Of a stretch of DNA of 64,000 nucleotides, positions 49,558-64,000 are shown one piece after another. Position numbers and translations under genes: made by a program. Within the stretch, counting starts at the first letter, position 1; every line of letters begins with the position of its first letter. Location of the stretch: positions 186,001 to 250,000 of the forward strand of contig NZ_QBUG01000008.1 of assembly GCF_003058225.1 (NCBI RefSeq), in the 5' to 3' direction. The notes under the pieces were generated by a model that saw only the letters and a program-made list of their open reading frames with translations, did no database searches and was not told the DNA's origin. Source of the stretch: Promicromonospora sp. AC04. GTDB taxonomy: Bacteria > Actinomycetota > Actinomycetes > Actinomycetales > Cellulomonadaceae.

Positions 49558-51762
49558 ATGACCACGAAGCTCCCGCCCGCATGGGACGAGTCCGACCCGC
49601 CCCGGACGACCCGGCCGAATGCCGGGCCCACCGGGGAGTCCGACCCTTCCCGGACGACCCGGCCGAATGCCGGGCCGACCGCCTGGCCGCCCCGCTGGGG
49701 TGCCGCCCCGGTGAGCGACCTCGACACGAGCCCGCTCACGGGGTTGACGAGGGACCACTGGATCGCGGCGGCGGACGGCCTGCTCCGCTCGGCCGCGCGG
49801 CAGGCGAGCGCGAGCGGTGCCCGGATCACCCCGGACGGCCGCCCGTCGTGGAACGGACCGGACTCCGACGCGCTCGAAGGGTACGCGCGCACGTTCCTGC
49901 TGCTGGGGTGGCGGCTGTCGGGGACGGGCGGCGTCGACCCGGAGTCCGATCCCGAGTCCGATCCCGAGGTCGATCCCGAGCTCGTCGCCGCCTACACCTC
50001 CGGCCTCGTCGCCGGCACGGACGCGCGGCACCCCGACGCCTGGCCCCGGATCTCGCCGGACTGCATCCAGGCCCTCGTCGAGGCCGCGTCCGTGGCGCTG
50101 GCGCTGCACCAGACCCGGCCCTGGATCTGGGACCGGCTCCTGCCCGAGCAGCGCGACGTCGTCGTCGGCTGGCTGCTCGGTGCCTTCACCATGGAGGTGC
50201 CGGACAACAACTGGCACTGGTTCCGGGTGGTCGTGGCCACGTTCGTCGCGACGACGGGTTACCCGCTGAGCGCCGACCAGCACGAGGTGGTCGACGCCGA
50301 CCTCGCCCGGATCGAGGAGTTCTACGTCGGCGACGGGTGGTACCGCGACGGGGCGGGGGAGGGCGACCGGTTCGACCACTACGCGGGCTGGGCCATGCAC
50401 TTCTACCCCGTCCTGTGGCACCGGATGTGCGAGTCCCTCGACGCGACGTCGCCGATCGCCCGGCGCTCGGTCGCGATGCGCGAGACGCACCGGGCGCGGC
50501 TCGTGGACTTCCTGGCGGACTATCAGCACCTGGTCGGGGCGGACGGCGCCCCGCTCTTCCTCGGCCGGTCGCTCACCTACCGGTGGGCCGCCGCCACGGC
50601 GCCGCTCGCGGCCGTCGTCGACGGGGCGTCGTCGTGGTCGCCGGGACTCACCCGGCACCTCGCGAGCGCGATGCTGCGCTACTTCCTCGACCGCGGCGCG
50701 ATCGGGTCGGAGGGCCTGCCGAGCCTCGGCTGGTTCGGCCCCTACCCGCCGATGATCCAGGGATACTCCGCGCCCTCGTCCCCGTTCTGGCTGTCGAAGG
50801 CGTTCGTCTGCCTCCTGATCGACGCCGAGGACCCGTTCTGGACGGCCGTCGAAGAACCGCTGCCCGCGGCCATGGAGAACCGGGTCCGGACGATGCCTCG
50901 GCCGGGCCTGGTCGTGTCGTCGACGGCCGACGACGGCATCGTGCGGGTGGCGAACCACGGCACGGACAACCACCGTCCCGGGGTGCCGGACGATCCGCTG
51001 TACTCCCGGCTGGCGTACTCCACCGCGACGGCCCCGGTCCTGGGGCCGGTGGCCCCCGTCGTGCCGGACAACCACGTCGGACTCGTCTCCGGGGGCCGGA
51101 TATCGCGCCGCGGGCGCATCCACCGCACCGTGCCCGGCGACGGCAGGGTCGGGGACGGCTTCGCCGGTTCGTGGCACGTGCCGACCTGGGTCGACGACGG
51201 TGTGGTGGTCGAGGCCACCGGCGCGCGCATCGAGACGGTCAGTGTGCTGGAGGGACCGTGGGAGCTGCGCATCCACCGGGTCGAGGCCGACGAGGGTTCT
51301 GCCGTGCTGGACAGCGGCTGGGCGGTGGCCGACGACGTCCCGCCCCGGGTCGAGCGAGTGGGACGTCAGATTCGTGTCATAGGCCGAGGGGGCCTGGTGA
51401 GCGTGCTCATGCCGGTCCTCGGCCAGGCTGACGAGCCCTCCGCCGAGCCCTCCGCCGAGCCTGTCGTCGAGCCCTCCGCCGAGCCCGTCGTCGAGGACGC
51501 GGCTGGCGGGAGCCCGCTGGGCCCGTTCGTGCGGGTCCCGTCCGTCACGACTCCGCGGCGGCCCGGTGCGGTGAGCGTGCATGCCGTCCTCGTCGGCCTG
51601 GCGGGGTCGCCGTCCGGCCTGGTGCTCGACCGGGACCCGGAGGTCGTGGTGGAGGAGGCCGGGGGCGCGCACCTGGTCCGCGTGACGATGCCGTCCGGGT
51701 CGCAGCGGCTGCTCGTGCTGGATTCCGGACGGCATGGTCACGTACCGCCGGTCAGCCCTTGA
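49558..51762 (+). CDS. DUF2264 family protein (polysaccharide-utilisation associated)
   Basis: The 734-aa, apparently cytoplasmic protein has a DUF2264 N-terminal domain: EGYARTFLLLGWRLSG, PDNNWHWFRVVVATFV, DGWYRDGAGEGDRFDHYAG, WAMHFYPVLWHRMCES, and the C-terminal GGRISRRGRIHRTVPG. The N-terminal alpha/alpha-barrel resembles glycosidases and lyases acting on rhamnogalacturonan fragments; activity is unproven. Duplicated TRPNAGPT (residues ~18-41) and a (Pro-Ser-Ala-Glu)n tract near residue 625 come from short DNA repeats. It is divergent from the hybrid regulator and next to a CUT1 importer, so it probably handles imported oligosaccharides. Its 3' end overlaps the MalG-like gene by 11 bp. Confidence 0.85.
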   Translation: MTTKLPPAWDESDPPRTTRPNAGPTGESDPSRTTRPNAGPTAWPPRWGAAPVSDLDTSPLTGLTRDHWIAAADGLLRSAARQASASGARITPDGRPSWNGPDSDALEGYARTFLLLGWRLSGTGGVDPESDPESDPEVDPELVAAYTSGLVAGTDARHPDAWPRISPDCIQALVEAASVALALHQTRPWIWDRLLPEQRDVVVGWLLGAFTMEVPDNNWHWFRVVVATFVATTGYPLSADQHEVVDADLARIEEFYVGDGWYRDGAGEGDRFDHYAGWAMHFYPVLWHRMCESLDATSPIARRSVAMRETHRARLVDFLADYQHLVGADGAPLFLGRSLTYRWAAATAPLAAVVDGASSWSPGLTRHLASAMLRYFLDRGAIGSEGLPSLGWFGPYPPMIQGYSAPSSPFWLSKAFVCLLIDAEDPFWTAVEEPLPAAMENRVRTMPRPGLVVSSTADDGIVRVANHGTDNHRPGVPDDPLYSRLAYSTATAPVLGPVAPVVPDNHVGLVSGGRISRRGRIHRTVPGDGRVGDGFAGSWHVPTWVDDGVVVEATGARIETVSVLEGPWELRIHRVEADEGSAVLDSGWAVADDVPPRVERVGRQIRVIGRGGLVSVLMPVLGQADEPSAEPSAEPVVEPSAEPVVEDAAGGSPLGPFVRVPSVTTPRRPGAVSVHAVLVGLAGSPSGLVLDRDPEVVVEEAGGAHLVRVTMPSGSQRLLVLDSGRHGHVPPVSP

Positions 51763-52678
51763 CGGCGCCCTGCATGATGCCGGCGACGAGCTGGCGCCCG
51801 GCGAAGGCGAAGACGAGCAGGAGCGGGAGGGTGACGAGGAAGACCCCGGCCATGATCAGGGAGTAGTCGTCGTGGTAGCCGGCGGTGAGGTTCTGGACCG
51901 CGATGGGCAGTGTCGGGTTCTGTGATCCCAGGACGATCGAGGGCCAGAAGAAGCTCGTCCACTGCCCGACGAAGACGAACAGGCCCAGCATGGACGCGGC
52001 GGGCAGCGCCGCGGGCAGCGCGATGCTCCAGAAGGTGCGGATCATGGACGCGCCGTCCACACGGGCGGCCTCGATGAGCTCGTACGGCAGCGCCGAGTCG
52101 AGGTACTGCGTCATCCAGAACACGCCGAACGCCGAGACCAGGTGGGGCACGATCACTGCCTCGATCTTCCCGACCCAGGACAGCTCGGACATCAGGATGT
52201 ACAGCGGGATGACGCCCAGCTGGGTGGGTACCGCCATGGTCGCGACGACAAAGACCAGCAGCGCGTTCCGCCCGGGGAACCGCAGCTTGGCGAACGAGAA
52301 CCCGGCCAGCGTGGAGCTCAGCACCGTGGCGAGGGACACCACCACGGCGATGATCAGGGAGTTGGCCAGCGCGAGCCAGAAGTTGACCTGGCTGGAGGAC
52401 ATGACGTCGGCGAACCCCGCGAAGACGCTCGCGTCCGGCCAGAGCTGTGGCAGCGCCCGCTGCGAGATCGACACCTGGTCCGACGAGCCGAGCAGCAGCG
52501 TGTAGTACAGCGGGAACGCCGAGACCACGAGCGCGACCGCCAGGATCGTGTAGGTCACCCACCCGGGCCGGCGCACCGCCGAGACGGTGCCGTTCCGGCC
52601 CAGACGTGCCCGCTTGCGGGCGGCGGCCCGCGCGGCCCCTCTGCCGACGGTCTGCGCGGCGGCGGCGACGGATGTCAT
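51752..52678 (-). CDS. ABC sugar permease (MalG-like), second importer
   Basis: The 308-aa CUT1 permease has six TM segments from TYTILAVALVVSAFPLYYTL and the EAA loop LIEAARVDGASMIRTFWSI, ending GRQLVAGIMQGAVKG. ATG at 52678 overlaps the stop of the MalF-like gene (ATGA). It is the last gene of the importer operon and overlaps the convergent DUF2264 gene by 11 bp. Confidence 0.93.
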   Translation of the reverse strand: MTSVAAAAQTVGRGAARAAARKRARLGRNGTVSAVRRPGWVTYTILAVALVVSAFPLYYTLLLGSSDQVSISQRALPQLWPDASVFAGFADVMSSSQVNFWLALANSLIIAVVVSLATVLSSTLAGFSFAKLRFPGRNALLVFVVATMAVPTQLGVIPLYILMSELSWVGKIEAVIVPHLVSAFGVFWMTQYLDSALPYELIEAARVDGASMIRTFWSIALPAALPAASMLGLFVFVGQWTSFFWPSIVLGSQNPTLPIAVQNLTAGYHDDYSLIMAGVFLVTLPLLLVFAFAGRQLVAGIMQGAVKG

Positions 52679-53757
52679 GAGTCCCTCCGGACCGTTGTCG
52701 TGCTGGCTGTCGTGTCCGCGTTGCCCGCGGCGCGTGCCTCGGCCAGCAGCCGACGGGTCACGGAGCGTCGCACCCGCGGCGTGCGGGTGGCGGACGACGC
52801 GATCCGCCGGCTGAGCAGGAAGTTGCCGAACCCGATCAGCAGGATCAGCACGAACAGCACCCACGCCACCGCGGCCGCCCGGCCGAGGTCGCGCTGGTTC
52901 CCCCACGCGACGTCGTACAGGTACAGCACGGTGGTCATCCACTGCCGGTCCGCGCCGCCCAGGCCACCGGCGTCGAACAGGCGCGCCTCGTCGAAGATCT
53001 GCAGGCCGCCGATGCTCGCGGTGAGCACCACGAAGATCACCGTGGACCGGATCTGCGGGACCGTCACCGAGAAGAACTGCCGCCACGGGCCCGCCCCGTC
53101 GATCGTCGCGGCCTCGTACAGGTCACGCGGCACCGCCTGCATGGCGGCCAGGAAGATCAGGGCGTTGTAGCCCGTCCACCGGTAGTTCACCATCGCCGCG
53201 ACCGCTACGTGACTGGCGAACCGGTCCCGGTGCCAGCCGATCTGGTCGAGGCCGAACGTCCCCAGGATGTCGTTGATCAGGCCGTACTGGTCGGCGAACA
53301 ACCGGCCGAAGATCAGCGACACCGCGATCGGCGCCACGACGTACGGCACCAGGACACCCATCCGCCAGAACGTGGCGTTGCGGATGTTCTGGTCCAGCAG
53401 CGCCGCCAGGGTGATCGCGATGACGATCTGCGGCACCGCGGAGAGCAGGAAGATCGACAGCGTGTTGACCAGGGACTTCCAGAATGTCTCCTGGCCGAGC
53501 ACGTCGGCGTAGTTCTGCATGCCGACGTACGTCCCCTGCCCGCCCAGCAGGTTCCAGTCGTAGACCGACACCACCGCCGTATAGGCCAGCGGAAACAGAC
53601 CGGTCAGCGCGAACAGCACGAAGAACGGCGAGACGTAGAGGTAGGGCGAGACCTTGACGTCCCAACGGCCCAACGCCTGGGAGAATCCCAGCCGGCGCGG
53701 TGCGCGCTGCGGAGCATCCGGCGTCGGCGCCGACTGCGTGGTGGTGAGTGCGGCCAT
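52675..53757 (-). CDS. ABC sugar permease (MalF-like), second importer
   Basis: The 360-aa permease has six TM segments from LYVSPFFVLFALTGLFPLAY and the EAA loop DLYEAATIDGAGPWRQFF. A long basic C-terminal tail (RRSVTRRLLAEARAAGNAD) is unusual. ATG at 53757 has AGGAAG at good spacing. It follows the binding-protein gene after 90 bp that hold four 15-bp tandem repeats. Confidence 0.93.
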   Translation of the reverse strand: MAALTTTQSAPTPDAPQRAPRRLGFSQALGRWDVKVSPYLYVSPFFVLFALTGLFPLAYTAVVSVYDWNLLGGQGTYVGMQNYADVLGQETFWKSLVNTLSIFLLSAVPQIVIAITLAALLDQNIRNATFWRMGVLVPYVVAPIAVSLIFGRLFADQYGLINDILGTFGLDQIGWHRDRFASHVAVAAMVNYRWTGYNALIFLAAMQAVPRDLYEAATIDGAGPWRQFFSVTVPQIRSTVIFVVLTASIGGLQIFDEARLFDAGGLGGADRQWMTTVLYLYDVAWGNQRDLGRAAAVAWVLFVLILLIGFGNFLLSRRIASSATRTPRVRRSVTRRLLAEARAAGNADTTASTTTVRRDS

Positions 53758-53799
53758 TTCAAGCTTCCTGATCAACTGCGCGAGACGGGGGCGGGTTAC

Positions 53800-53859
53800 C
53801 TCCTGGAGGCCGAGCTCCTGGAGGCTGGGTTTCTAGAGGCCAAGCTTCTAGAGGCCGAG
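53800..53859 (-). repeat. Four 15-bp tandem repeats spanning the binding-protein stop codon
   Basis: Four 15-bp units (two of the CTCCTGGAGGCCGAG type, two of the TTTCTAGAGGCCAAG type) begin in the last codons of the solute-binding gene and run into the gap before the permease. In the gene's frame each unit re-encodes LGL plus two more codons, so the repeats arose by duplication of the gene's own end. Confidence 0.8.
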
Positions 53860-55179
53860 GTCGTCGAAGGCCGTGAGCGTCTTCTCCCACGAGGTGCCGG
53901 GGTCCTCGTCCGTCGTCTCGACGCGCTCGATGCCCTGCTGCACCGTCTGGTGGATCGCGAAGTAGTTCGGCCCCTTGAACGGGTTCCCCTCGATCGCCTG
54001 CGCGCGGTTCGAGAAGATCTGACCCACCGGGGCGTCGTTCATGAACTCGTTGACGAACGACTGCACCTGCTCCGACTCCTGCGCCTCGATCTGCGACGGG
54101 AAGTTCCCGGAGGTCTCGAACGCCGCGGTCTGCTGCTCGGGCGCGGTCAGCCACGCCGCCAGCTCCTTGGCGGCCTCGATGTGCGCGCCCGAGGCGGGCA
54201 CGGTCAGGAAGGAGCCGCCCCAGTTGCCGCCCCCGCCGGGAAACACGTCGGCGATGTTCCAGCCCGTGACCCCGCCCGAGTTGGACTCGATCGAGCCGGT
54301 CATCCACGCGGGGCACAGCATCGTGGCGAAGGCATCGTTCTGGAAACCGGAGGCCCAGTCCTCGCCCCACTGCACCAGGCCCGCCGACAGCCCGGCGTCG
54401 TGCTGCTCCACTATCGTGTCGTACAGGTCCTTGATCTCCGCGTTCTCGGCCAGCGGCTTGGGCGTGCCGTCGCTCTCCTCGTACGCGTTCTCGACCTGGT
54501 TCACCAGACCCTGGTAGGTGGCGACGCCCGAGTCGTACCAGGCGGTGTCGGAGCCCTTCACGAAGTCCGCGCCCGCGGCGAAGTAGTCCTCCCACGTCGC
54601 GTCCTCACCGCCGAGCAGCTCCGCGACCTCGTCCGGCTCGGACGGGAGGCCCGCCTCCTCGAACAGGTCCTGGCGGTAGCAGATCGCCTCGGGCCCGATG
54701 TCGGTGCCGTAGCCGATGAGCTTGCCGTCGGGCGTCGTGGCCTGCTCCACCTTCCAGTCCATCCAGCGCCCGTCGAGCTCGGGGTCGGTCATGTCGGTGA
54801 ACAGGTCCGGGTACTGGGCCAGCTCGCTGATCCAGTCCACCTCGATCGCCTCGACGTCGGCCAGGCCCTCGCCGCCGGCGGCGAGCTTCGTGGTCAGGTT
54901 GGTCCGCGCGTCCGCGGCGGACGCGGCGTCGATCAGCTCCACGGTGACGTCCGGGTGCTCCTCGGTGTACTGCGCCAGGAGCTCGTCGGAGTACCCGAAG
55001 TCGTTGAAGGTCGCGACGGTCAGGGTGATGGGACCGTCCTCGGCGGCCCCGCCGCCGTCGGACCCGCCGCCGTCGGACCCGCCGCAGGCGGTCAGCGCGA
55101 GGACGACGGCGGCCGCGCCGGCGGTCGTCTGGAGGGTGCGCGCGGCGGCGCGCCTGGTGGGTCGAGTGCTGCTTCGCAC
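53848..55179 (-). CDS. ABC transporter solute-binding lipoprotein, second importer
   Basis: The 443-aa family-1 solute-binding protein has a lipoprotein signal ending LALTACGG, followed by a Gly/Ser/Asp spacer and the mature fold (ITLTVATFNDFGYSDELLAQ, HPDVTVELIDAASAADART, IGYGTDIGPEAICYRQDLFE, GSFLTVPASGAHIEAAKELA). GTG at 55179 has AGGGAG at good spacing; the longer open frame upstream runs through direct repeats and is unlikely to be coding. It is first in a three-gene importer operon without ATPase. A GATC-N6-GATC palindrome about 240 bp upstream links it to the hybrid regulator. Confidence 0.93.
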   Translation of the reverse strand: MRSSTRPTRRAAARTLQTTAGAAAVVLALTACGGSDGGGSDGGGAAEDGPITLTVATFNDFGYSDELLAQYTEEHPDVTVELIDAASAADARTNLTTKLAAGGEGLADVEAIEVDWISELAQYPDLFTDMTDPELDGRWMDWKVEQATTPDGKLIGYGTDIGPEAICYRQDLFEEAGLPSEPDEVAELLGGEDATWEDYFAAGADFVKGSDTAWYDSGVATYQGLVNQVENAYEESDGTPKPLAENAEIKDLYDTIVEQHDAGLSAGLVQWGEDWASGFQNDAFATMLCPAWMTGSIESNSGGVTGWNIADVFPGGGGNWGGSFLTVPASGAHIEAAKELAAWLTAPEQQTAAFETSGNFPSQIEAQESEQVQSFVNEFMNDAPVGQIFSNRAQAIEGNPFKGPNYFAIHQTVQQGIERVETTDEDPGTSWEKTLTAFDDLGL

Positions 55180-55492
55180 AGTGACTCCCTTGTCTTGTTC
55201 GAAGGTCTTGTTCGAAGGTCTAGCCCGAAGAGCCGTGTGGAACGGCAACCTGTCGGTGGGGCGCTCCGGACGAATGGACGGAGCGGGCTCCCTTGCCTTC
55301 CGCAGATGCTCATTCCGGCGGCCGGGGGCGTCAACCAGCGAACGGGGCGTCGTGGGTTCGCGACGGCTCGGAGCCGCCAGTTCCTGCGGTTCCCACGCCG
55401 TCGAGACTTGGGGCGCGAGGTGATCGGTATTGATCGAGATCGCCGTCGCGGCGTCGTCGCCCGCGCGGCCCGCGACCCATAGAGTCGGCCAG
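55180..55492. promoter_or_regulatory. 313-bp divergent intergenic region with repeats and operator site C
   Basis: Near the binding-protein start is a 13-bp direct repeat (CTTGTTCGAAGGT twice, 55195-55220) that places two TTCGAA palindromes 13 bp apart. At 55420-55437 lies GTGATC-GGTATT-GATCGA, of the same GATC-N6-GATC design as sites A and B but with imperfect outer bases; it is also close to the start of the SnoaL-like gene. The rest shows no coding character. Confidence 0.5.
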
Positions 55493-55861
55493 ATGACAGT
55501 GCTGGTGGACTACATCGATGCCTGGGTGGCAGGGGACGTCGAGCGCATCGCCGCAACGGTGGCCGAGGACTGCGTCATCACGGAGTGCTACGGACCGGTC
55601 TACCGCGGGCGGGACTGGGTTCGCCGCTGGGCGGAGGACTGGTTCGGCGCGGGCGGCGTCGTGCACCGCTGGGACGTCACGGACCACATCGTCACCGCCG
55701 ACCGCGAGGTCGCCGAGTGGACGTTCGAGTGCACGTGGGAAGGCACCCGGAGCACCTTCGACGGCGCCACCATCGCCAGCACCCGAGACGGTCTCGTCCT
55801 GACGCTGCGCGAGTACCAGACCACTGCACCGCTCTACGACTGGCGCGGCTCCTGGCGCTGA
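55493..55861 (+). CDS. SnoaL/NTF2-like small protein
   Basis: The 122-aa protein has the NTF2-like pattern: YIDAWVAGDVERIAATVAED at the first helices, CVITECYGPVYRGRDWVRRW (the cone entrance) and C-terminal strands EWTFECTWEGTRSTFDG and LVLTLREYQTTA. Such proteins bind or isomerise small molecules, or are simply structural; no ligand can be named. ATG at 55493 has a weak site. It stands alone, convergent with the DUF202 pair. Confidence 0.82.
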   Translation: MTVLVDYIDAWVAGDVERIAATVAEDCVITECYGPVYRGRDWVRRWAEDWFGAGGVVHRWDVTDHIVTADREVAEWTFECTWEGTRSTFDGATIASTRDGLVLTLREYQTTAPLYDWRGSWR

Positions 55862-55895
55862 CCGGGGACCTCTGCAGCGCGTGCGCTACGCGCAG

Positions 55896-56240
55896 TCAGG
55901 ACCACACGTGCATGCCGACGACGACGGCGAGGCCGCCGAGGCCGAGCACCACCACCGCGCCGCCCGCGAGCGCGAGCAGCCCGGCGCCAGGGTTCGCCGA
56001 CCCGGGGCCTCGGGCCGGGACAGGCACGCGCCTGGCGTGCCGGCGCCGGGACGCCAGCCACAGGAACCCGGCCAGCACCAGCCCGACCCCGCCCGGCAGG
56101 ATCCAGACCGCGCTGCCGAAGAGCGCGGGCAGCAGCCGGGCGCCCACCAGGGAGGCGGCCGCGAGGGACAGTGCCGTGCGGCGCCACGCGAGCTCGGTGC
56201 GCTCGACCTGGAGGCCGGCCTTCGGGGCGGTGTCGGTCAT
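55896..56240 (-). CDS. DUF202 membrane protein
   Basis: The 114-aa protein has the DUF202 signature VERTELAWRRTALSLA in the first helix, then TM segments LLPALFGSAVWILPGGVGLV and AGLLALAGGAVVVLGLGGLA. These small proteins (YidH/YidG type) come in pairs and have no established role. ATG at 56240 overlaps the stop of the companion DUF202 gene (ATGA). Confidence 0.85.
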   Translation of the reverse strand: MTDTAPKAGLQVERTELAWRRTALSLAAASLVGARLLPALFGSAVWILPGGVGLVLAGFLWLASRRRHARRVPVPARGPGSANPGAGLLALAGGAVVVLGLGGLAVVVGMHVWS

Positions 56241-56608
56241 CGGAGCAGGATGCCCAGCAGCACCAGCACGCCGACCACCGCGACGACGATCGTCAGCGCC
56301 ACCCCCACGATCGTCGACGGCAGCGGCGACCCGCTGCGCAGCGCGCGCTCTACCCGCATCCACCCGGACCAGGCGAGCAGGGGCACGACCGTCCCGGCCA
56401 CGATGAGCACAATCGACGCCGCGAGCCGCAGGCCAGGATGCAGGTCCAGCCCGAGCGCCTCGAGCGCCACCCCGCCCGCGACGAGCGCGAGGGCGGTCCG
56501 GATCCAGGCGAGAAAGGTCCGCTCGTTGGCGAGTGTGAACCGCGCGTCGGGCTCCCCGCCGACGCCGAAGACCGACCCGGGGAACCGACGGTCGTCGGGC
56601 CGGCTCAT
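56237..56608 (-). CDS. DUF202 membrane protein, YidH-like
   Basis: The 123-aa protein has the DUF202 signature FTLANERTFLAWIRTALALV, then three hydrophobic segments (ALALVAGGVALEALGLDL, ASIVLIVAGTVVPLLAWS, IVGVALTIVVAVVGVLVLLG). It is paired with the second DUF202 gene downstream by a 4-bp overlap, and its own ATG overlaps the stop of a 43-codon open frame. The pair probably forms a hetero-oligomer in the membrane. Confidence 0.88.
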   Translation of the reverse strand: MSRPDDRRFPGSVFGVGGEPDARFTLANERTFLAWIRTALALVAGGVALEALGLDLHPGLRLAASIVLIVAGTVVPLLAWSGWMRVERALRSGSPLPSTIVGVALTIVVAVVGVLVLLGILLR

Positions 56609-56736
56609 CGAGTGGCCACAGGGGGCTGTTCCCCGGATCGCGCCCTGGATTCCGCCTTGGATTCCGCCCTGGAGCGCGGGCTGCCGTCATCCGTGGAGGG
56701 CTCCTGCTCCGTCAGTCGCTCCTTGAGCCGTTCCAT
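56605..56736 (-). CDS. Small charged protein coupled to the DUF202 pair
   Basis: The 43-aa frame MERLKERLTEQEPSTDD... is very rich in Glu, Arg and Ser, with no hydrophobic segment. It has a good ribosome site (AGAAGG, eight bases) and its TGA overlaps the ATG of the DUF202 gene. That pairing argues for real translation, either as a small protein or as a leader that drives translation of the pair. Confidence 0.5.
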   Translation of the reverse strand: MERLKERLTEQEPSTDDGSPRSRAESKAESRARSGEQPPVATR

Positions 56737-56851
56737 CTGTCGTCCTTCTGCCGTCACTCTCGCCGTAAGTTCCGTGGTCCGATCATGCCCTGGATCTGCT
56801 GCGGTCCGCGTCTGGCAGGGTCCGGCAGTGTCCGCGGGCGTGGACGACCCA

Positions 56852-56902
56852 CGTGCCGATGGGTGCGCCGGGGTCTCGGACCCCGGCGCACCCATCGGCA
56901 CG
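56852..56902. terminator. Perfect 24-bp stem hairpin
   Basis: The 24-bp arms, beginning CGTGCCGATGGGTGCGCCGG and with an exact reverse complement, enclose a TCG loop. The hairpin lies about 50 bp past the stop of the secreted-protein gene on the minus strand and 116 bp before the small DUF202-linked frame. It is a very strong terminator or the core of a small repeat element. Nothing else is seen in this 218-bp gap. Confidence 0.75.
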
Positions 56903-56954
56903 CTCATCTCATCCGAGGCGCCGGCTCCAGCGCCTCGACCAACGGCTTGTGGCG

Positions 56955-57482
56955 TCAGCCGTCGTTGTTCTTCCAGCCGCTCCAGTCGGAGCAGTTGTCC
57001 GGGAGGGACGGAACGTTGCGGCACGTCTTGATGCGGACCTGGCTCTGGACGCCGCCCAGGGCGTTCTCGTTGCCGGTCTCGTACATGTTCTTGTTGCACG
57101 CGCCCCAGTGGCCCGACCCGCCGTAGTACTCGCACCGGCCGTGGCGGTAGAGGTGCCAGGTGCCGTTGGTGTCGCTCAGCCGGTTCTCCCAGAGGACGTA
57201 GGGGGAGTAGCCGTCAGCGCTGGTGTCCTTGACGTAGAGGATGTCGCCGTACTCCTTGAAGGCCCCCTGCGCGCCGGTCGTCGAGGTCCAGAAGTAGCTG
57301 CCCGACGGCGTGGCGCTGTCGGCCGCTGTGTCGTTCTCGAAGGCGTTCACGAGCGGCGTCACCGCCGCCGGTGCGGCAGCGGCGTCCGGGGATGCCACGG
57401 CGGGTGCAGCGGCGGCACCCAGGGTCAGGGCGAGGCCGATCGCGACGGCGACCAATCCGGCCTTCTTCTTGTAAATGTGCAT
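56955..57482 (-). CDS. Small secreted protein, unknown function
   Basis: The 175-aa protein has a signal peptide (KKKAGLVAVAIGLALTLGAA, cut near AVASP) and a ~130-residue mature part rich in Tyr, Gly, Trp and Asn with four Cys (GRCEYYGG, WGACNKN, IKTCRNVPS, DNCSDWSG), probably two disulfides. Motifs such as WTSTTGAQGAFKEYGDILYV, KDTSADGYSP and SDWSGW recur in small secreted actinobacterial proteins of unknown role. ATG at 57482 has GGGAG at long spacing. A 362-bp region with several repeats lies upstream, suggesting regulated expression. Confidence 0.8.
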   Translation of the reverse strand: MHIYKKKAGLVAVAIGLALTLGAAAAPAVASPDAAAAPAAVTPLVNAFENDTAADSATPSGSYFWTSTTGAQGAFKEYGDILYVKDTSADGYSPYVLWENRLSDTNGTWHLYRHGRCEYYGGSGHWGACNKNMYETGNENALGGVQSQVRIKTCRNVPSLPDNCSDWSGWKNNDG

Positions 57483-57844
57483 TTGAAATCAGCTCCCGAG
57501 TATTGAACGTATGATGCGAGTCGGCCAGGCAAGATGGTGCTCTTCGACCAACTAGGTGGAACGCTATGGGGCAGATATTCAGCACCGCACGCAAAGTTTG
57601 CCTGGTAGAAGCCGAGAAAGCGGGCCTGAACTGGGCGTTTGCATCCTGGTGCAATTCAGCCTTTGCATCCAGGTGCAATGAGGTTTGGGCTCCGTATGCG
57701 GCTATCGGGCTCCTGCCGGCAAACTGTGGCCGCAACATGCCTGCTCAGCTCGGGAACTGTGCACGATGTCTTGAGACAGAACTGTGCACGATGTCCCGAG
57801 ACTTAACAGGCATTCCGAGTTGCCGATGATCTGACATTTGCCGA
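57483..57844. repeat. 362-bp intergenic region with two pairs of direct repeats
   Basis: Positions 57638-57654 and 57662-57678 carry TTTGCATCCTGGTGCAA and TTTGCATCCAGGTGCAA, two near-palindromic 17-mers 24 bp apart, with TTGCA/TGCAA arms. Positions 57754-57770 and 57779-57795 both read GAACTGTGCACGATGTC, 25 bp apart and each followed by (TT/CC)GAGAC. CTCGGGA and TCCCGAG flank the second pair. The first pair looks like tandem operators for the secreted-protein gene. The second resembles insertion-sequence end or target remnants, from memory only. No gene is evident. Confidence 0.7.
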
Positions 57845-58978
57845 TCACTCGCGCTTGCCTTGCCTTGTCCGGACCAGCGGGATCACCACCGCTGCCGCCA
57901 CGGCCAGCATCACCAGGCCGAGCAGGGCCCACGGCACCGCCCAGCCGCTCGCGGCGTCGTGCGCCGAGGTCACGCCGCCCCCACCGATGCCGACCACGAG
58001 GCCGTCCACCCGGACCGTCGCCTCGGCTCGCACGAGCGGGCGGACGCCGGACACCTGGACCACGCGGTCCACCGCGGAACCGGGCAGGATCTCCGCCAGC
58101 TCGGCCGACACTGTCGTCGTGCCGCCCGGCCCGGCCGCGCCACCTGGCCCGGTCACCGTCACGGTCTCCGTGGGGACTACCCGCGCGGTGCCCGTGTTGG
58201 TCAGGCGGTAGCGGACCGTCGAGGTGACCGTCCCGAACGGGTTCGAGGACGCATCGGTGGTCACGACGAGGCCGGTGATGCTCAGCCCGGGCGCGAGCGC
58301 CCCCGCGACGCGGACGTGCATCCGCAGGGCGAGGCGGCGGTCCACGGTCAGCGCGGAGTCGCCGACCCGCTGGGTGAGGGCGGTGACGACGCCGCCCGAG
58401 TGGTCGCCGGGGGCGGCGTCGGCGGGCACGCGCAGCGTGAACGGGACCTCAGCGGACTCGCCGGGTTCGAGGTCGAGCGCGCGCTGCTTGAAGGAGAGCC
58501 AGGTGCCGAGCCCGGTCGCCGGTTCGTCGGCGGTCAGCAGGTCGATGTGGCCGCCCGGCGTGGTGAACGCGTCGGTGCCGTACACGGTGAGCTGCAGGGG
58601 AGCGGCGGACCGGTTCGTCACCACCACGGCGTCGGCGATGCGGTCACCGGGTTCGACGGTGTAGGCGTAGTTGGCCCGGCCGTCGACCTGCTGGTTGTCC
58701 TGCTGGTTGTCCCGCGGATTGTCGGCCGGTGTCACCGACCACGAGATCCCGTCGGGCGCGGCTGTCGCGCTTGTCGCGGACGCGCTTGTCGCAGACACGG
58801 TATCGGCGGGCGTCGTAGACACGGCATCAGCGGACAGGGCGGACGCGGCGGCGGGTCCAGCGAGCGGCAGCGTGCTGAACAGGGCCGTGCAGAGGACGGC
58901 CGCACAACGGTGAGCGAGCACCGCTGCCGCGGCGCGCCCGGAGGCGCGTCGCGGCAGCGGACGAGAGCGGTGGGCCAC
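57845..58978 (-). CDS. DUF916-like (WxL-interacting type) membrane-anchored surface protein
   Basis: The 377-aa protein has a signal peptide, then a spacer, then a DUF916/WxLIP-like beta region: GISWSVTPADN, ANYAYTVEPGDRIADAVVVT, VYGTDAFTTPGGHIDLL, WLSFKQRALDLEPGESAEV, PFTLRVPADAAPGDHSGGVV. A second beta domain (residues ~240-320) precedes a C-terminal TM helix (ALLGLVMLAVAAAVVIPLV) and RTRQGKRE tail. In Firmicutes such proteins partner WxL-domain proteins on the wall. Here it directly follows the HtaA-WxL gene (7 bp) and ends the haem operon. The GTG start has a weak ribosome site. Confidence 0.82.
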   Translation of the reverse strand: MAHRSRPLPRRASGRAAAAVLAHRCAAVLCTALFSTLPLAGPAAASALSADAVSTTPADTVSATSASATSATAAPDGISWSVTPADNPRDNQQDNQQVDGRANYAYTVEPGDRIADAVVVTNRSAAPLQLTVYGTDAFTTPGGHIDLLTADEPATGLGTWLSFKQRALDLEPGESAEVPFTLRVPADAAPGDHSGGVVTALTQRVGDSALTVDRRLALRMHVRVAGALAPGLSITGLVVTTDASSNPFGTVTSTVRYRLTNTGTARVVPTETVTVTGPGGAAGPGGTTTVSAELAEILPGSAVDRVVQVSGVRPLVRAEATVRVDGLVVGIGGGGVTSAHDAASGWAVPWALLGLVMLAVAAAVVIPLVRTRQGKRE

Positions 58979-58985
58979 GGAAGCG

Positions 58986-60224
58986 TCAGCCCACCGCGGT
59001 GAGCGTGAGCACGCTCGTGTAGTCGCCGGCCGGGGTGTCCAGCGGGATGCGCAGGTCGAGGGCGGCGTCCGCCGTCACCGAGCCCGCGGCGTGCCCCGCC
59101 GGGGCGGACACCAGGGTGGCGCCCGCGGTCAGGCCGGATCCCGTGCTCGGCCGCACCAGAGGCCCTGCGACCGCACCGCCGGTGTTCTCCGTGACCGACG
59201 GCGACCAGCCCAGGCTGCTGCCCGGGAAGGAGGCCGAGCCGCCGGACGCGAAGAAGTCCGTGGCCGTGCCGTTGATGCTCCAGGCGGGGCCGCCGGCGCG
59301 GGTGTCGCTGACGGTCACCTGCTTGAGGTCGCCCGCGGCGGTCAGTGCGTCCGCGCCCGCCTCGGCGGTGCCGAGGCTCACGGCCCCGGCGCCGCCGACG
59401 ACGGTCCACGTGAACGCGCCCGGCTCGGGGTCGCCGTCGTCCTCGGGGACGGTGACCTCGAGGTCGATCTCGTCCGCGGAGCCGCCCGCGGGCGTGGTCG
59501 TCTGCGCGCTCACGGTGAAGTTGTCGAGCGCCGCCCCCTCGGCGAGGAAGCCCTGGAGCGCAGCGGCGCCCTCGGCCGTGAGGGTCACGCCGGTCCCGGT
59601 GACCGTCACGGCGTCGGCGGAGACGTCAACCGTCGTCGTCGCGACCTCGCCGAGCACCACGTCGTCGCCGCCGTAGGTGCCGGGCTCGTAGCCCAGGTTG
59701 TTCTCCGGGATGACGACGGCGAGGTCGCCCACGAGGGAACCCACGCCGTCGTCGACCACCACGCCGACGTCCTTGACCGTCACCGTGAAGGCGTGCGACG
59801 GGAAGTGGTAGACGGCGCCGCCCGTGCTGTCGACCGTCAGGTTGTCGGCGTCCGTGACCGTCCCGCCCGAGACGGGCAGCAGGTACGGGAGGGTCTCGTT
59901 CGGCGGGGTGGTGTCCAGGTTGGCGGCGGGCGTGCCGGCCTCGTCGAACTGGCCGGGCGCCACGAGCGTGATCCGCTCGCCGATCGGGACTGCCCCGATC
60001 GGCGGCAGGGCCGCCGTCTGGCGCCCCACGTAGTTGCGGAAGCTCTCGCGGAACCCCCAGGCCAGGTCACCGCTGTCCGCGGTGACCTCGTCCGCCTCGG
60101 CGGCGCTGGCCGTGGTGGTCAGTGCGACGAACGGTGCGGCGGTCAGCGCCGTGCCCAGCCCGATGGCGAGTAGCGCGTGCCCGGCGCGGTGCCGGGAGCG
60201 GCCCGCCGTTCTGCTGCGTGTCAT
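58986..60224 (-). CDS. HtaA-domain protein with C-terminal WxL-like domain
   Basis: The 412-aa exported protein has a signal peptide (ALLAIGLGTALTAAPFVAL, cut near TASAAE). An HtaA domain (SGDLAWGFRESFRNYV at ~51-66; TGGAVYHFPSHAFTVTVKDV; LGEVATTTVDV; ~50-245) is the haem/haemoprotein-binding fold of corynebacterial surface proteins. The C-terminal ~120 residues look like a WxL domain: DTRAGGPAWSINGTATDFFA, SSLGWSPSVT, and the end DLRIPLDTPAGDYTSVLTLT. There is no TM helix; WxL domains attach to the wall non-covalently. It sits between the second HtaA gene and the DUF916-like gene in the haem operon. Confidence 0.85.
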   Translation of the reverse strand: MTRSRTAGRSRHRAGHALLAIGLGTALTAAPFVALTTTASAAEADEVTADSGDLAWGFRESFRNYVGRQTAALPPIGAVPIGERITLVAPGQFDEAGTPAANLDTTPPNETLPYLLPVSGGTVTDADNLTVDSTGGAVYHFPSHAFTVTVKDVGVVVDDGVGSLVGDLAVVIPENNLGYEPGTYGGDDVVLGEVATTTVDVSADAVTVTGTGVTLTAEGAAALQGFLAEGAALDNFTVSAQTTTPAGGSADEIDLEVTVPEDDGDPEPGAFTWTVVGGAGAVSLGTAEAGADALTAAGDLKQVTVSDTRAGGPAWSINGTATDFFASGGSASFPGSSLGWSPSVTENTGGAVAGPLVRPSTGSGLTAGATLVSAPAGHAAGSVTADAALDLRIPLDTPAGDYTSVLTLTAVG

Positions 60225-60267
60225 GGGATGTTGCCTCTCTCTGGGGATGGATGAACGGACTGGGGGT

Positions 60268-61674
60268 TCAGGTGTCGCGCCGCCGGAACGGCAGCACGAG
60301 CCAGCCCTGCCGGAAGCCGAGGATCGCCACGGAGGCGGCGACCAGCAGGACGGTGGTCAGGACGGCGAGCCGCCGGCCGGTGGCGCCGCCGGGAAGCAGG
60401 CCCTCGGGGATCAGGTCGGCGCCTGCGGCGTCGAGCGTGGCGGCGGCGACGGGCAGGAAGGAGTCGGCGGGGTCCGGGCTCGGGGCAGAGGTCGGGCCGG
60501 TACCGGAGCTTCCGCCGCCCGCCGTTCCGGGGTTCGCGGGGGCTGGGGGCTGGTCCGGCGCGGGCGGGTCCGCCGCGGGCGGTGTCCCGCCGTCGGCCCC
60601 GCCGCCGCTCGTACCGGTGCCGCTCCCGCCGCCGCTCCCGCCGCCACTCCCACCACCGGGACCCGCGCTGCCGACGGACTCGGCGGCGTCGAAGCTGACG
60701 CTCACGTTCGCGGGCGTCTTGATCTCGTCCCGGGTCCCGGTGGAGTACCAGAACTCGGGCTCGCCCACGAGCTGGTGGAAATTCACCAACGACTGCGGGA
60801 ACGCGCCCCAGCAGCTGCCCGGCGGGTTCTCGCGGAGCTGGGGCACGCGGCCGCGCGCGTCCACCCGTTCGCCGCAGTAGTCGGGCACGAGGTGCCCGCC
60901 GCGCGAGTCCGGGTCGAGGCGGCGTCCCGTGAAGGTCAGGAGCTGCGCCCGGGTGTCGGGCAGGGGCTCCCAGCGGGTCATGTCCTGCTGGTCCGTGCCG
61001 TAGCCGCCGAGCGTGCCTGTGAGCGCGCCGTTCCCGTTCGCGTCCAGGCGCAGCTCCGGGTCGGCGACCCACCAATAGACCAGGCCGCCGTAGAACACGA
61101 CGGTGAACGTGCCGTCCCACCGGATGCGCACCGACCCGTCCGCCTCGCGCGTACCGGTCCCGCCGGTCAGCACTACCTCGGCGCCAGTGGTCCGGCCGGC
61201 GTCGTACGACACCGGGCGGCCGTCGGGCGACGTGCAGCGCGTCCCGAACGTGGCGGTCCGCTCCGTGCTGTCCGTGCTGTCCGTGCTGTCCCCGCCCCGG
61301 CCGACGACGGTGCGCACCACGCGCACGTCGCCGGACCGCCCGTGGTACAGGTTCCGGTCCGCCTCGGTCCAGACCCGTCCGCCGCCCGTGTTCCCGTCGG
61401 TGCCGGGGCGGCCCGCCACGAGGAAGTTGCACTGTCCCGCGAGGTGGCTCTCCGACCCGGCCTGGGCGCTCACCGCCCACCGCAGCTCGGCGTCGGTGAG
61501 CTTGCCGTCGTCCACCTCGCCGGGCGGCTCCTCCTGGTCCTCGGGCACGGTCACCGTCAGCAGGAGCGGTCCCTGGTCGTCGTCCGCGGACGCCGTTGCC
61601 GTCGTTGTCGCCGCCAGCACCACCGCGAGGACGACGCCGGCGGCCCAACCCCGGCGGTGCGTCCCGCGGCTCAT
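60268..61674 (-). CDS. htaA: HtaA-domain membrane-anchored haem-binding protein
   Basis: The 468-aa protein has a signal peptide (AAGVVLAVVLAATTTATASA), then an extracellular region with HtaA-type strands: LTDAELRWAVSAQAGSESHL, GTFTVVFYGGLVYWWVADPE, LRLDANGNGALTGTLGGYGT, LTFTGRRLDPDSRGG and the Trp/His-rich CWGAFPQSLVNFHQLVGEPE. A Gly/Ser/Pro linker leads to a C-terminal TM helix (LAVLTTVLLVAASVAILGF) and RRRDT tail. Cys pairs (QCNFLVAG, TRCTSPDG, YCGERVD, SCWGAF) suggest disulfides. ATG overlaps the stop of the upstream gene. By analogy with Corynebacterium HtaA it would take haem from host or environmental proteins and pass it to the ABC importer. The symbol is by family. Confidence 0.85.
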   Translation of the reverse strand: MSRGTHRRGWAAGVVLAVVLAATTTATASADDDQGPLLLTVTVPEDQEEPPGEVDDGKLTDAELRWAVSAQAGSESHLAGQCNFLVAGRPGTDGNTGGGRVWTEADRNLYHGRSGDVRVVRTVVGRGGDSTDSTDSTERTATFGTRCTSPDGRPVSYDAGRTTGAEVVLTGGTGTREADGSVRIRWDGTFTVVFYGGLVYWWVADPELRLDANGNGALTGTLGGYGTDQQDMTRWEPLPDTRAQLLTFTGRRLDPDSRGGHLVPDYCGERVDARGRVPQLRENPPGSCWGAFPQSLVNFHQLVGEPEFWYSTGTRDEIKTPANVSVSFDAAESVGSAGPGGGSGGGSGGGSGTGTSGGGADGGTPPAADPPAPDQPPAPANPGTAGGGSSGTGPTSAPSPDPADSFLPVAAATLDAAGADLIPEGLLPGGATGRRLAVLTTVLLVAASVAILGFRQGWLVLPFRRRDT

Positions 61675-62921
61675 GCGCGCACCTCCTGCTCGGCGGGTAC
61701 GTCGCCCGGGGGCGGGTCGCCTGCTTCCCGCTCCTCCCGACGCCGGTCCGCCCGCCGCTTCAGCGCGGTGACCAGCGATGACAGGATCACGACGAGGAGC
61801 AGCAACGCCGCCACGCCCACCGCTGTCTCCTCGGGCCGCCACGTGCCCGTGGTGCCCGATGTGGCACCACCCGCGGCGCCTGCTGCGTCCTCGGCCTCCT
61901 CGGCGGCGGAGACCTCGGCGGGGTCGCGGGTCACCGTCACCTCGGTCTCGATCTCGGTCCCGGACGATGCGCCGGTCAGCCGCAGCACGTGCGTGCCGGT
62001 CCGCAGGTCGGAGGGGAGCTCGACGAGACCCGCGACCTCGCCGTGATTCCCAGCGACAAGGGGTCCGACGGCGACCACGCCGTCGTCCAGCGTGACGCTC
62101 ACCTGCTCGCCGGGCTCGAGCCCCTGCGCCCCGAAGCTCATGACCCGCCCCACCACTGCCGTCGCCTGGTCCACGCCCAGGCTGGCCTTGCCGGGCTCTT
62201 TCGACTTGTCGTCAGCCTCGTTCCCGGCGTCGGCGTCGGCGTCGGCGGCCGTTCCGCCCTCGTTCCCGGCGCCGGATGACCCCGCGGCGTCGTTCGACAC
62301 ACCGTTCTCAGCCCCACCCGCGTCGCCGCCCGGCGCGCCATCGGTGCCCGTCCCGGCGTCGCTCCCGGCGAAGGTCACGGGCGTGAAGGACTCGTTGTTC
62401 GCGTTGCGTACCCCGTGCGCGCCGATCGTGATGATCCCGCACTGCACCGCCGTGCAGTCCACGGCGGTGCCGTCGGCGGCCTCGAAGCGGGCGCCGGGGA
62501 CCACCAGGTCTGTCGACCAGGTGCCGTTCGAGGCGATGGTGCCGCCGTTCGCCTCGGCCTCCGTGCTCGATCCCGGGAACGCGACGAACCTCTGGTACCC
62601 GGCGTTCTGCGCGGTCTCGGCGTCGGGCACGTAGCGGTAGGTGTCCCCGGACACCCCGCCGCGGCTCGGCGCCCACGACCCGCCTGACGGGTCCGACACC
62701 CAACCGAAGAACACATAGATGCCGCCGAACGCCTTGGGGATCGACTGGAAGCCGCTGCCCGACACGCGCACGGTCGTGGCGCCGTCCGGGTCGGGCTGCC
62801 CCGAGACGGTGACCTTCGCGGCGGCGTGCGCGGCGAGGACCGGGCCGAGCAGCGCGAGTGCGACCACGATGACGAGGGCGATCAGCGGGATCGCCGGGCG
62901 GGGCAGGTTGCGGGGCGTCAT
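61671..62921 (-). CDS. Membrane-anchored surface protein of the haem operon
   Basis: The 416-aa protein has a signal peptide (LIALVIVVALALLGPVLAAH), then an N-terminal domain of neocarzinostatin-like pattern (VRVSGSGFQSIPKAFGGIYV, FFGWVSDPSGGSW, VDCTAVQCGIITIGAHGVRN). An Asp/Ala/Gly-rich linker, a second Ig-like domain (VVGRVMSFGAQGLEPGEQVS, TGTHVLRLTGASSGTEIETE) and a C-terminal TM helix (VGVAALLLLVVILSSLVTAL) with charged tail follow. Proteins of this layout occur beside htaA and hmuTUV genes in Actinobacteria. It is coupled to both neighbours by 4-bp overlaps. A haem-relay or scaffolding role is inferred. Confidence 0.78.
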   Translation of the reverse strand: MTPRNLPRPAIPLIALVIVVALALLGPVLAAHAAAKVTVSGQPDPDGATTVRVSGSGFQSIPKAFGGIYVFFGWVSDPSGGSWAPSRGGVSGDTYRYVPDAETAQNAGYQRFVAFPGSSTEAEANGGTIASNGTWSTDLVVPGARFEAADGTAVDCTAVQCGIITIGAHGVRNANNESFTPVTFAGSDAGTGTDGAPGGDAGGAENGVSNDAAGSSGAGNEGGTAADADADAGNEADDKSKEPGKASLGVDQATAVVGRVMSFGAQGLEPGEQVSVTLDDGVVAVGPLVAGNHGEVAGLVELPSDLRTGTHVLRLTGASSGTEIETEVTVTRDPAEVSAAEEAEDAAGAAGGATSGTTGTWRPEETAVGVAALLLLVVILSSLVTALKRRADRRREEREAGDPPPGDVPAEQEVRA

Positions 62922-64000
62922 GCGTGGTCCTCGGTAGGTGTCTGGGCGGGGCGGACCGCCGCAAGCGCCGGCGGTGCGAACGACTTGTTGCCGGACTCAG
63001 GGGCGGGCTGTGCGCCGGGCTGTGCGCCGGGCTGAGCGCCGGGCTGTGCGTGCAGACCCCCGGCGTACCGGGGGAGGACGAGCAACCCGCCGGTGACGGG
63101 GTGCGGCAGCACGTCGACCGGGTACTCGTAGACCCGGGAGAGCAGCTCGGCGGTGAGCACCTCGGCGGGCGCGCCGAGCGCGGCGACCCGCCCGCCGTCG
63201 AGCACCAGTACGCGGTCGGCCCAGGCGGCGGCGAGCGCCAGGTCGTGCAGCACCACGACGACGGCGCCGCCGTCCGTCGCGTGCCGCCGGGCGTGGTGCA
63301 GCACGTGCTCGGTGTGGCGGACGTCGAGCGCGGCGGTCGGCTCGTCGAGCAGCAGCACAGTGGTGTCCTGGGCGAGCAGCCGCGCGAACGAGGTGCGGGC
63401 CTTCTCGCCGCCCGACAGGGTCGGGTAGCGGCGCTCGGCCAGGCCCGCGACGTCGGCGGCCTCCAGAGCGCGGGCGACCACGGCGTCGTCGTCCAGGTCG
63501 CGGCCGGGGCTATGGCTGCCCGAGCCATGGTGACCGGGGCTATGGCTACCGGGGCCATGACTGCCGGTTCCGTCGCTGCCGGTTCCGTCGCTGCCGGGAC
63601 CGTCGCCGCCGGGACCGTCGCCCGTCGCGCGGGCCCGGGCCGTGGCACCCTGCCACGGCGCTCGCCCCATGCGCACCACGTCGACCACCCGGAACGGGAA
63701 GCTGACCTGGTTCTCCTGGAGCAGGACGGCCCGCAGACGGGCCAGCTCCGCGGGCCGGACGGCGCCGAGCGGCGTGCCGGTCCAGGCGGCCTGGCCGGCG
63801 TCGGGGGCGCGGTCGCCGGCCAGGACGGAGACCAGTGTGGACTTCCCGGCGCCGTTGGGGCCGACGACGACCAGCACCTCGCCCTGGCGTACGTCGAGGT
63901 CGACGTCGTCCAGCAGGACGGCGTCCCCGGCCCGGACCCGGACGCCGGACAGGGTGAGGAGGGCGGGCCGGTCCGGCCGGATCTCGCGACCCGGCTGGGC
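62918..64000 (-). CDS. hmuV: Haem ABC transporter ATP-binding protein (HmuV-like), 5' end outside window
   Basis: The frame is open to the right edge, so the start lies beyond 64000; 360 codons are visible. Walker A is GPNGAGKST, the Q-loop LLQENQVSFPFRVVDVVRMG is typical of FecCD-type haem/siderophore ATPases, the signature is LSGGEKAR, Walker B VLLLDEPTAALD and H-loop VVLHDLALAAAW. Between the Q-loop and signature is a ~40-residue Gly/Ser/Asp/His-rich insert (63500-63622; SHGPGSHSPGHHGSGSHSPG) absent from normal HmuV. The C-terminus has AQPG repeats. The stop overlaps the next gene (ATGA). The binding protein and permease (hmuT, hmuU) are probably just outside the window. Confidence 0.9.
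   Translation of the reverse strand, partial: AQPGREIRPDRPALLTLSGVRVRAGDAVLLDDVDLDVRQGEVLVVVGPNGAGKSTLVSVLAGDRAPDAGQAAWTGTPLGAVRPAELARLRAVLLQENQVSFPFRVVDVVRMGRAPWQGATARARATGDGPGGDGPGSDGTGSDGTGSHGPGSHSPGHHGSGSHSPGRDLDDDAVVARALEAADVAGLAERRYPTLSGGEKARTSFARLLAQDTTVLLLDEPTAALDVRHTEHVLHHARRHATDGGAVVVVLHDLALAAAWADRVLVLDGGRVAALGAPAEVLTAELLSRVYEYPVDVLPHPVTGGLLVLPRYAGGLHAQPGAQPGAQPGAQPAPESGNKSFAPPALAAVRPAQTPTEDHA

Follow-up and report, generated by a model that had tools for sequence, protein, structure and literature searches.

A probable haem-uptake operon of Promicromonospora sp. AC04 that joins HtaA-type domains to a WxL-like domain and a WxLIP-like partner

The 64-kb stretch of the Promicromonospora sp. 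AC04 genome analysed here (positions 186001-250000 of contig 8 in a 6.85-Mb genome; hereafter the window) ends inside an operon with the gene order hmuT-hmuU-hmuV-P0004-P0003-P0001-P0002, all on the minus strand. The five genes that lie in the window are the downstream portion of this hmuTUV operon, which extends beyond the window end. We consider it likely that the operon serves haem acquisition and that its outer haem-binding protein, P0001, is held on the cell wall without sortase by a pair formed of its WxL-like domain and the WxLIP-like protein P0002. In the following list, coordinates above 64000 continue the window numbering into the adjoining 12 kb (locus L003, which also covers the window end; x in L003 corresponds to x+56999 here). 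Signal peptides and transmembrane (TM) helices were assigned throughout from hydropathy and by eye.

65334-66530, minus strand: hmuT, outside the window
64090-65337, minus strand: hmuU, outside the window
62918-64093, minus strand (in the window to 64000, with 93 bp beyond): hmuV-like ATP-binding cassette (ABC) ATPase, 391 amino acids (aa), NF010068
61671-62921, minus strand: P0004, surface protein of 416 aa with a signal-like N-terminus, an acidic linker and a C-terminal TM helix, without LPXTG
60268-61674, minus strand: P0003, 468 aa, with a divergent HtaA-like domain, two invariant Cys, a Gly-rich linker and a C-terminal TM helix
58986-60224, minus strand: P0001, HtaA/WxL-like protein of 412 aa with a signal-like N-terminus, HtaA at residues 52-239 and a WxL-like domain at about 265-412
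58986-59474, minus strand: WxL-like domain of P0001, with Trp315-Ser-Ile as motif 1 and a degenerate motif 2, LTLTA, at residues 406-410
57845-58978, minus strand: P0002, WxLIP-like protein of 377 aa with a signal-like N-terminus, PF06030 at residues 94-197 and a TM helix within 342-373

A sequence-only reading of the window had described five tightly packed genes with three 4-bp overlaps or gaps of 7-43 bp. All five are present on the minus strand, and the window holds two such overlaps; two more (hmuT-hmuU and hmuU-hmuV) lie outside it, and each of the four junctions from hmuT to P0003 is thus a 4-bp overlap. Gaps of 43 bp and 7 bp separate P0003 from P0001 and P0001 from P0002. An open GTG frame of P0003 starts earlier than the ATG at 61674 (524 aa versus 468 aa). 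The ATG is most likely the true start, because it results in the 4-bp overlap and places a signal-like stretch at the N-terminus.

Residues 52-239 of P0001 match the Pfam HtaA family (PF04213) at 62.5 bits, against a cut-off of 24, as had been predicted for the gene at 58986-60224. The top PDB sequence match of P0001 is 6js9, a Corynebacterium glutamicum HtaA domain (E-value 1.3e-8), and the 13 best PDB matches returned by Foldseek for its AlphaFold model are all HtaA, ChtA or HtaB domains. NCBIfam gave no match to P0001. The model has a mean predicted local distance difference test (pLDDT) score of 73.7, with low values in residues 1-41, 79-113 and 248-263 and block means of 82 over 111-240 and 94 over 281-412. 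According to the available text of PMC12494546, the haem site of solved HtaA domains comprises a helix 1 Tyr, the Ser that precedes it by four positions, a helper residue, either His (in the b6-b7 loop) or Tyr, and another Tyr that binds a propionate. In an alignment to 6js9, Ser61, Tyr65 and His144 of P0001 correspond to the haem-binding Ser, Tyr and helper His, and on these residues the HtaA domain of P0001 would bind haem. Neither hydropathy nor a search for the LPXTG pattern reveals a TM helix after the signal, an LPXTG motif or another anchor in P0001.

Three P0001 orthologues from the same genus (L012, L013 and L014; here and below, labels such as L005, G254, f7 and g19 are our internal ones for loci, genomes, families and genera) are longer frames (614-616 aa) in which an additional domain separates HtaA from WxL. 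By eye this domain is P0004-like, it is matched only weakly by the P0004 model, and the window P0001 has none. The genome encodes one more HtaA protein, of about 200 aa and scoring 56.3 bits, at G000:C14:108616-109065 (L001, L004), with no hmuTUV, WxL-like or WxLIP match within the 18 kb around it.

The C-terminus of P0001 had been read as WxL-like. The Pfam WxL family (PF13731, cut-off 25 bits) does not match it, nor does this family match anything in the whole genome at E ≤ 10; the kinship is upheld by comparison of family profiles. The WxL-like family matches a profile of ten actinobacterial sequences found with PF13731, eight of them over its cut-off, at 98.5% (E-value 2.3e-15), and a profile of six Bacillaceae WxL domains (four plasmid records) at 89.8% (E-value 1.8e-6). 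These matches cover nearly the full length of the domain, and reversed and column-shuffled control templates reach at most 1.1%. PF13731 does match eight of 20 aligned family members at E ≤ 1, the best at 2.9e-4. The Trp of motif 1 is kept in 28 of 31 aligned rows, the window version being WSI. PMC5817068 (available text) gives the distal motif as YxxxLTWxLxxxP, in which the L before T may also be I or V; the Trp of motif 2 is found in none of our 31 rows, which have LTLTA or similar instead. P0001 does not carry the two Trp-x-Leu motifs of a WxL domain, and it has the C-terminal position and the adjoining WxLIP gene expected of one. Because PF13731 misses the domain, the family profiles match WxL and the motif 2 Trp is lost, we classify the P0001 C-terminus, on profile evidence, as a divergent WxL branch and not as a Pfam-defined WxL domain. 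It may bind peptidoglycan. No PDB match to the WxL-like alignment was credible in a profile search, and among the Foldseek matches of the P0001 model none pointed to a WxL fold. A second HtaA domain at the C-terminus was considered and rejected, the WxL-like family scoring 0.6% against the HtaA profile.

P0002 contains the DUF916-like domain that had been proposed for 57845-58978: the WxLIP family PF06030 (DUF916) matches residues 94-197 at 36.2 bits (cut-off 27.3), the sole match to this family over cut-off in the genome. The region that follows has no Pfam match over cut-off, and NCBIfam gave only sub-cut-off matches to P0002 and P0003. Hydropathy segments at 16-37 and 342-373 correspond to the signal-like start and C-terminal TM helix of a WxLIP. 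At E ≤ 0.001 the window genome has one WxL-like and one PF06030 match, so the WxL/WxLIP system looks dedicated to haem in this organism.

Across 297 genomes of the order, the WxL-like profile is positive in 69, PF06030 in 60 and HtaA in 81. Among the matches listed, 97 of 122 PF06030 domains are preceded on the same strand by a WxL-like domain at a distance of 169-601 bp, where chance would give about 0.09 (genomes taken as 4 Mb); this linkage leads us to reject the idea that the two are chance neighbours. Up to 12 copies of the WxL-like domain occur per genome in the order, and in L015 and other genomes the domain has a WxLIP neighbour and other cargo; the N-terminal part of the L015 protein shows metallophosphoesterase-like motifs by eye. 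Frames of 218-265 aa in L020, L021, L025 and L030, which precede a WxLIP gene and consist almost wholly of a signal-like start and the WxL-like domain, resemble small WxL proteins.

The operon itself recurs in relatives. All seven parts stand in the same order in five of the six loci L005-L010 (L005-L009, of which L005 is from Promicromonospora sp. MEB111; L010 is cut by the contig start) and in 13 of 20 further regions. The latter figure is not a frequency, because these regions were chosen among WxL-like matches, mostly for an HtaA or P0003-type domain. Of the remaining seven, six run into contig ends; the last, L115, has a WxL-like/WxLIP pair and no hmuTUV, P0003- or P0004-type match in 18 kb. 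Three genomes occur in both sets, and with duplicates removed the full order is found in 15 distinct genomes besides that of the window, all from loci chosen for these domains and with P0002-, P0003- and P0004-family models built from matches in the same loci. The P0004- and P0003-like parts share a single frame in L123 and L129. In L005-L009 and L110-L113 the WxL protein carries HtaA as its cargo, and in L010, L114, L116-L120 and L122-L129 it carries the P0003-type domain; L121 shows only the end of the protein. Divergent layouts also occur. In G508, from another order, a protein combining HtaA (144.6 bits), a P0004-like part and WxL (20.3 bits, below cut-off) and a WxLIP gene are divergent from hmuTUV, and G217, from the same order, has a divergent layout too.

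The P0003-type domain is present in 41 of the 297 genomes. Among the matches listed, a WxL-like domain lies within 1709 bp of it in 28 of these genomes and in none of the remaining 13; this is the outcome of our check for relatives that consistently lack the two genes. Nine of the 13 belong to one genus (f7 g19), which has no WxL-like domain or PF06030 among the matches listed. In eight of these nine genomes a P0003-type protein ends in LPXTG, and in the ninth (G264) the contig ends before the frame does. The LPXTG-bearing gene is divergent from hmuTUV-P0004-P0003 in L138 and L140, and L141 is cut by a contig end. G095, G100 and G302 show weak matches or other architectures. That LPXTG stands in the place of the pair in genus g19 is our best evidence that the WxL/WxLIP pair serves as an anchor.

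P0003 had been called a TM-anchored HtaA protein. Its C-terminal TM helix stands and its kinship to HtaA holds at a distance; a Pfam match to HtaA does not, for P0003 has none at E ≤ 1, to PF04213 or any other family. In profile comparison its family matches HtaA at 93.2% (E-value 3e-7), or 92.2% with alignment A6. Its model has a mean pLDDT of 74.8, and the nine best PDB fold matches are all HtaA domains, from a best E-value of 2.7e-3 with probability 1.00 to a ninth with probability 0.35 and none at E ≤ 0.001. A PDB search with P0003 alone gave no credible match. The profile comparison and fold matches lead us to reject the view that P0003 is unrelated to HtaA. In alignments, the family has two invariant Cys as well as invariant Trp and Tyr positions and is without both the SxxxY pattern and the helper His. 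We read P0003 as a TM-anchored HtaA-like domain that may bind its ligand in another mode.

The importer genes agree with uptake of haem. The nearest solved structure to HmuT is C. glutamicum HmuT (5AZ3, E-value 1.4e-71), in which His141 and Tyr240 are the ligands and Arg242 binds the Tyr (PMC4926363, available text). All three are kept in the HmuT of this operon, which also has a lipobox-like LVAGC by eye. Across 25 loci, among which three genomes appear twice and L138-L140, without a WxL-like match, are included, Tyr and Arg are kept in 25 of 25 and His in 21. The ATPase, earlier called HmuV-like, exceeds the cut-off of the haem ABC transporter ATP-binding protein model NF010068 (284.3 versus 261 bits), so that HmuTUV combines the His and Tyr ligands of HmuT with a haem-type ATPase. 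Within HmuV, at 63494-63649 on the minus strand, a 52-residue repetitive stretch rich in Gly, Ser and His follows MGRAPWQ; the repeats are absent at this place in the eight relatives inspected. P0004 is the membrane-anchored surface protein that had been expected, by its signal-like N-terminus and C-terminal TM helix. Its relatives occupy the same place in related operons, and it matches the enediyne chromoprotein model NF040680 weakly (21.5 bits, cut-off 86).

The operon is probably iron-regulated, judging from sequence upstream of hmuT. Scored against the DtxR consensus, an iron-box-like site at 66589-66571, 41 bp before the hmuT ATG, agrees at 15 of 19 positions, and an overlapping site at 14 of 19. 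A search allowing at most three mismatches to this consensus found no match, the hmuT site having four; no site in the whole 64-kb window scores 14 of 19 or more. A score of 15 of 19 is reached before hmuT in 12 of 19 loci, compared with 2.8% of random 400-bp windows from those loci; without duplicate genomes and the window itself, it is reached in ten of 15. The best score is 13 or 14 in L006, L008 and L116. L127 (11) and L128 (10) are without such a site.

We infer the contact between P0001 and P0002 and the order of haem transfer from these homologies and linkages. P0001 would be exported, and Tyr65 of its HtaA domain would bind the haem, assisted by His144 and with Ser61 contacting a propionate, all three being assigned by alignment. 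The WxL-like domain of P0001 would dock onto P0002 at the putative peptidoglycan-binding domain, and the TM helix of P0002 would fix the pair at the membrane-wall zone. Haem could then pass to membrane-anchored P0003 and P0004, in roles that we propose for them, to HmuT and through HmuUV. The wall-held haem-capture complex suggested earlier is supported by homology, by gene linkage, by the lack of another anchor on P0001 and by LPXTG in one genus. Because TM-anchored proteins remain in the operon, the WxL/WxLIP pair would add to TM anchoring.

Several observations weigh against this interpretation. The helix that carries Tyr65 is modelled weakly, since the block mean pLDDT is 60 over residues 41-70, and Leu227 of P0001 aligns with the presumed propionate-binding Tyr of 6js9. 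Because PF13731 misses the WxL-like domain and its motif 2 Trp is lost, the binding to peptidoglycan and WxLIP that is described for WxL domains may not extend to it. The host-binding domain DUF3324 is not among the Pfam matches of P0002 at E ≤ 1, and the Firmicutes rule of two WxL proteins per cluster does not hold in the window genome. Among the WxL-like matches listed (at least 150, covering 67 of the 69 positive genomes), 97 of 150 have PF06030 downstream and 53 of 150 are without a listed PF06030 neighbour. G254 (L139) has hmuTUV-P0004-P0003 without the pair. In those loci of other families of the order that we examined, WxL is fused to the P0003-type domain, which is without the HtaA Ser/Tyr/His pattern; haem binding by the WxL protein may therefore not be general. 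Finally, NCBIfam has no family over cut-off for HmuT or HmuU, the top HmuU models being B12 permeases, and Asn replaces the HmuT His in four of 25 loci (L123, L124, L126 and L127), where Tyr and Arg stay.

Some of these points could be accommodated by other explanations. P0001 could mainly be a released haemophore, for which WxL-WxLIP contact is a transient docking at the membrane and not a stable wall anchor. It has neither a covalent nor a TM anchor, motif 2 of its WxL-like domain is degenerate, and PMC5817068 (available text) reports WxL proteins in the medium as well as on the surface. However, a wall-linking LPXTG on a P0003-type protein of genus g19 and a C-terminal TM helix on the WxLIP speak against release, which we consider unlikely. 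It is far less probable still that the P0001 C-terminus is an unrelated immunoglobulin (Ig)-like domain that merely resembles WxL. The lack of a PF13731 match in the window protein and weak matches of relatives to DUF4402 (five of 20) and NPCBM_assoc (four of 20) would fit such a domain, but the near-full-length profile matches with clean controls, the eight of 20 family members that PF13731 finds at E ≤ 1 (best 2.9e-4) and the linkage to WxLIP speak for WxL.

Alternatively, the operon could capture not free haem but a different ligand, for instance a haemoprotein or some other tetrapyrrole; the P0003 type would then be the main receptor and the canonical HtaA domain a lineage-specific substitute for it. 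The P0003-type domains, which are devoid of HtaA ligands and have invariant Cys, Trp and Tyr, are the WxL-fused domains in the loci examined from other families, and both the His-to-Asn change in four HmuT proteins and the B12 permease models that head the HmuU list below cut-off point the same way. Against this stand the Tyr and Arg of HmuT in all 25 loci and His in 21, an ATPase above the haem cut-off and the canonical HtaA domain of the window P0001. We doubt this explanation while granting it some chance, and continue to favour a haem-binding P0001 held on the wall by the WxL-like/WxLIP pair. We also advance a broader proposal, tentatively, as a distinct possibility: the pair may belong to an undescribed, divergent actinobacterial branch of WxL/WxLIP display with varied cargo, exchangeable for LPXTG, in which the outer receptor of a wall-to-membrane haem relay is either a Tyr-ligand HtaA domain or a ligand-less, two-Cys HtaA-like domain for a haemoprotein or other tetrapyrrole.

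Downstream of the operon, at 56955-57482 on the minus strand, lies a gene for a small protein (175 aa) that looks secreted and to which no Pfam family scores over cut-off, and the minus-strand genes at 51752-55248 read by eye like a sugar-type ABC transporter, with a binding protein and two permeases. An Rfam search of 55000-64000 gave no match.

The available literature places WxL and WxLIP almost solely in Firmicutes, as a host-binding or virulence platform, and assigns over 91% of WxL sequences to that group (PMC9772566). The main texts of PMC9772566 and PMC10599100, in their available parts, contain no words with the stems actinobacteri-, actinomycet- or heme. Literature searches, whose coverage left out most subscription papers and all bioRxiv preprints, found no paper joining HtaA with WxL or DUF916; with the same partial coverage, they found nothing on a WxL domain with Cellulomonas or on DUF916 with Micrococcales. 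A WxL/WxLIP pair in an actinobacterial nutrient-uptake operon would assign this system a specific cargo, together with a function, growth on haem, that can be measured. Since LPXTG takes the place of the pair in one genus, its role as an anchor is open to direct test, and the ligand-less HtaA-like family hints at an uncharacterised receptor step in haem uptake.

In corynebacteria, HtaA-type genes stand beside hmuTUV, as they do in the window operon, and HtaA and ChtA are TM-anchored. The likeness extends to HmuT, which is closest to that of C. glutamicum, and to the axial Tyr, Ser and helper His of the HtaA CR domain, by alignment. HtaA and ChtA are also described as secreted haemophores (PMC12494546), and one HtaA-domain protein each of Corynebacterium striatum and Streptomyces is listed with a C-terminal TM tail (PMC10924467), both in the available text. 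Unlike the corynebacterial proteins, the window HtaA protein ends in a WxL-like domain paired with a WxLIP, and the operon adds a second, ligand-less HtaA-like protein. Firmicutes WxL clusters comprise a small WxL, a large WxL and a WxLIP (DUF916-DUF3324), according to the available texts of PMC9772566 and PMC10599100. The window operon is like them in the C-terminal WxL-type domain on its cargo, in an adjoining PF06030 WxLIP with a C-terminal TM helix and in the absence of LPXTG from P0001 and P0002. It differs in having one WxL protein, no motif 2 Trp and no DUF3324 match, and in its haem-binding cargo (by alignment), its operon shared with hmuTUV and its actinobacterial host. The LPXTG-bearing protein of genus g19 has the same domain as the window P0003, and LPXTG replaces WxL/WxLIP. 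The Isd NEAT proteins of Firmicutes form a wall-to-membrane haem relay, anchored by sortase, that ends in an ABC importer. The relay that we propose would share with Isd the path from wall to membrane to an ABC importer and differ from it in fold and in the sortase anchoring of Isd.

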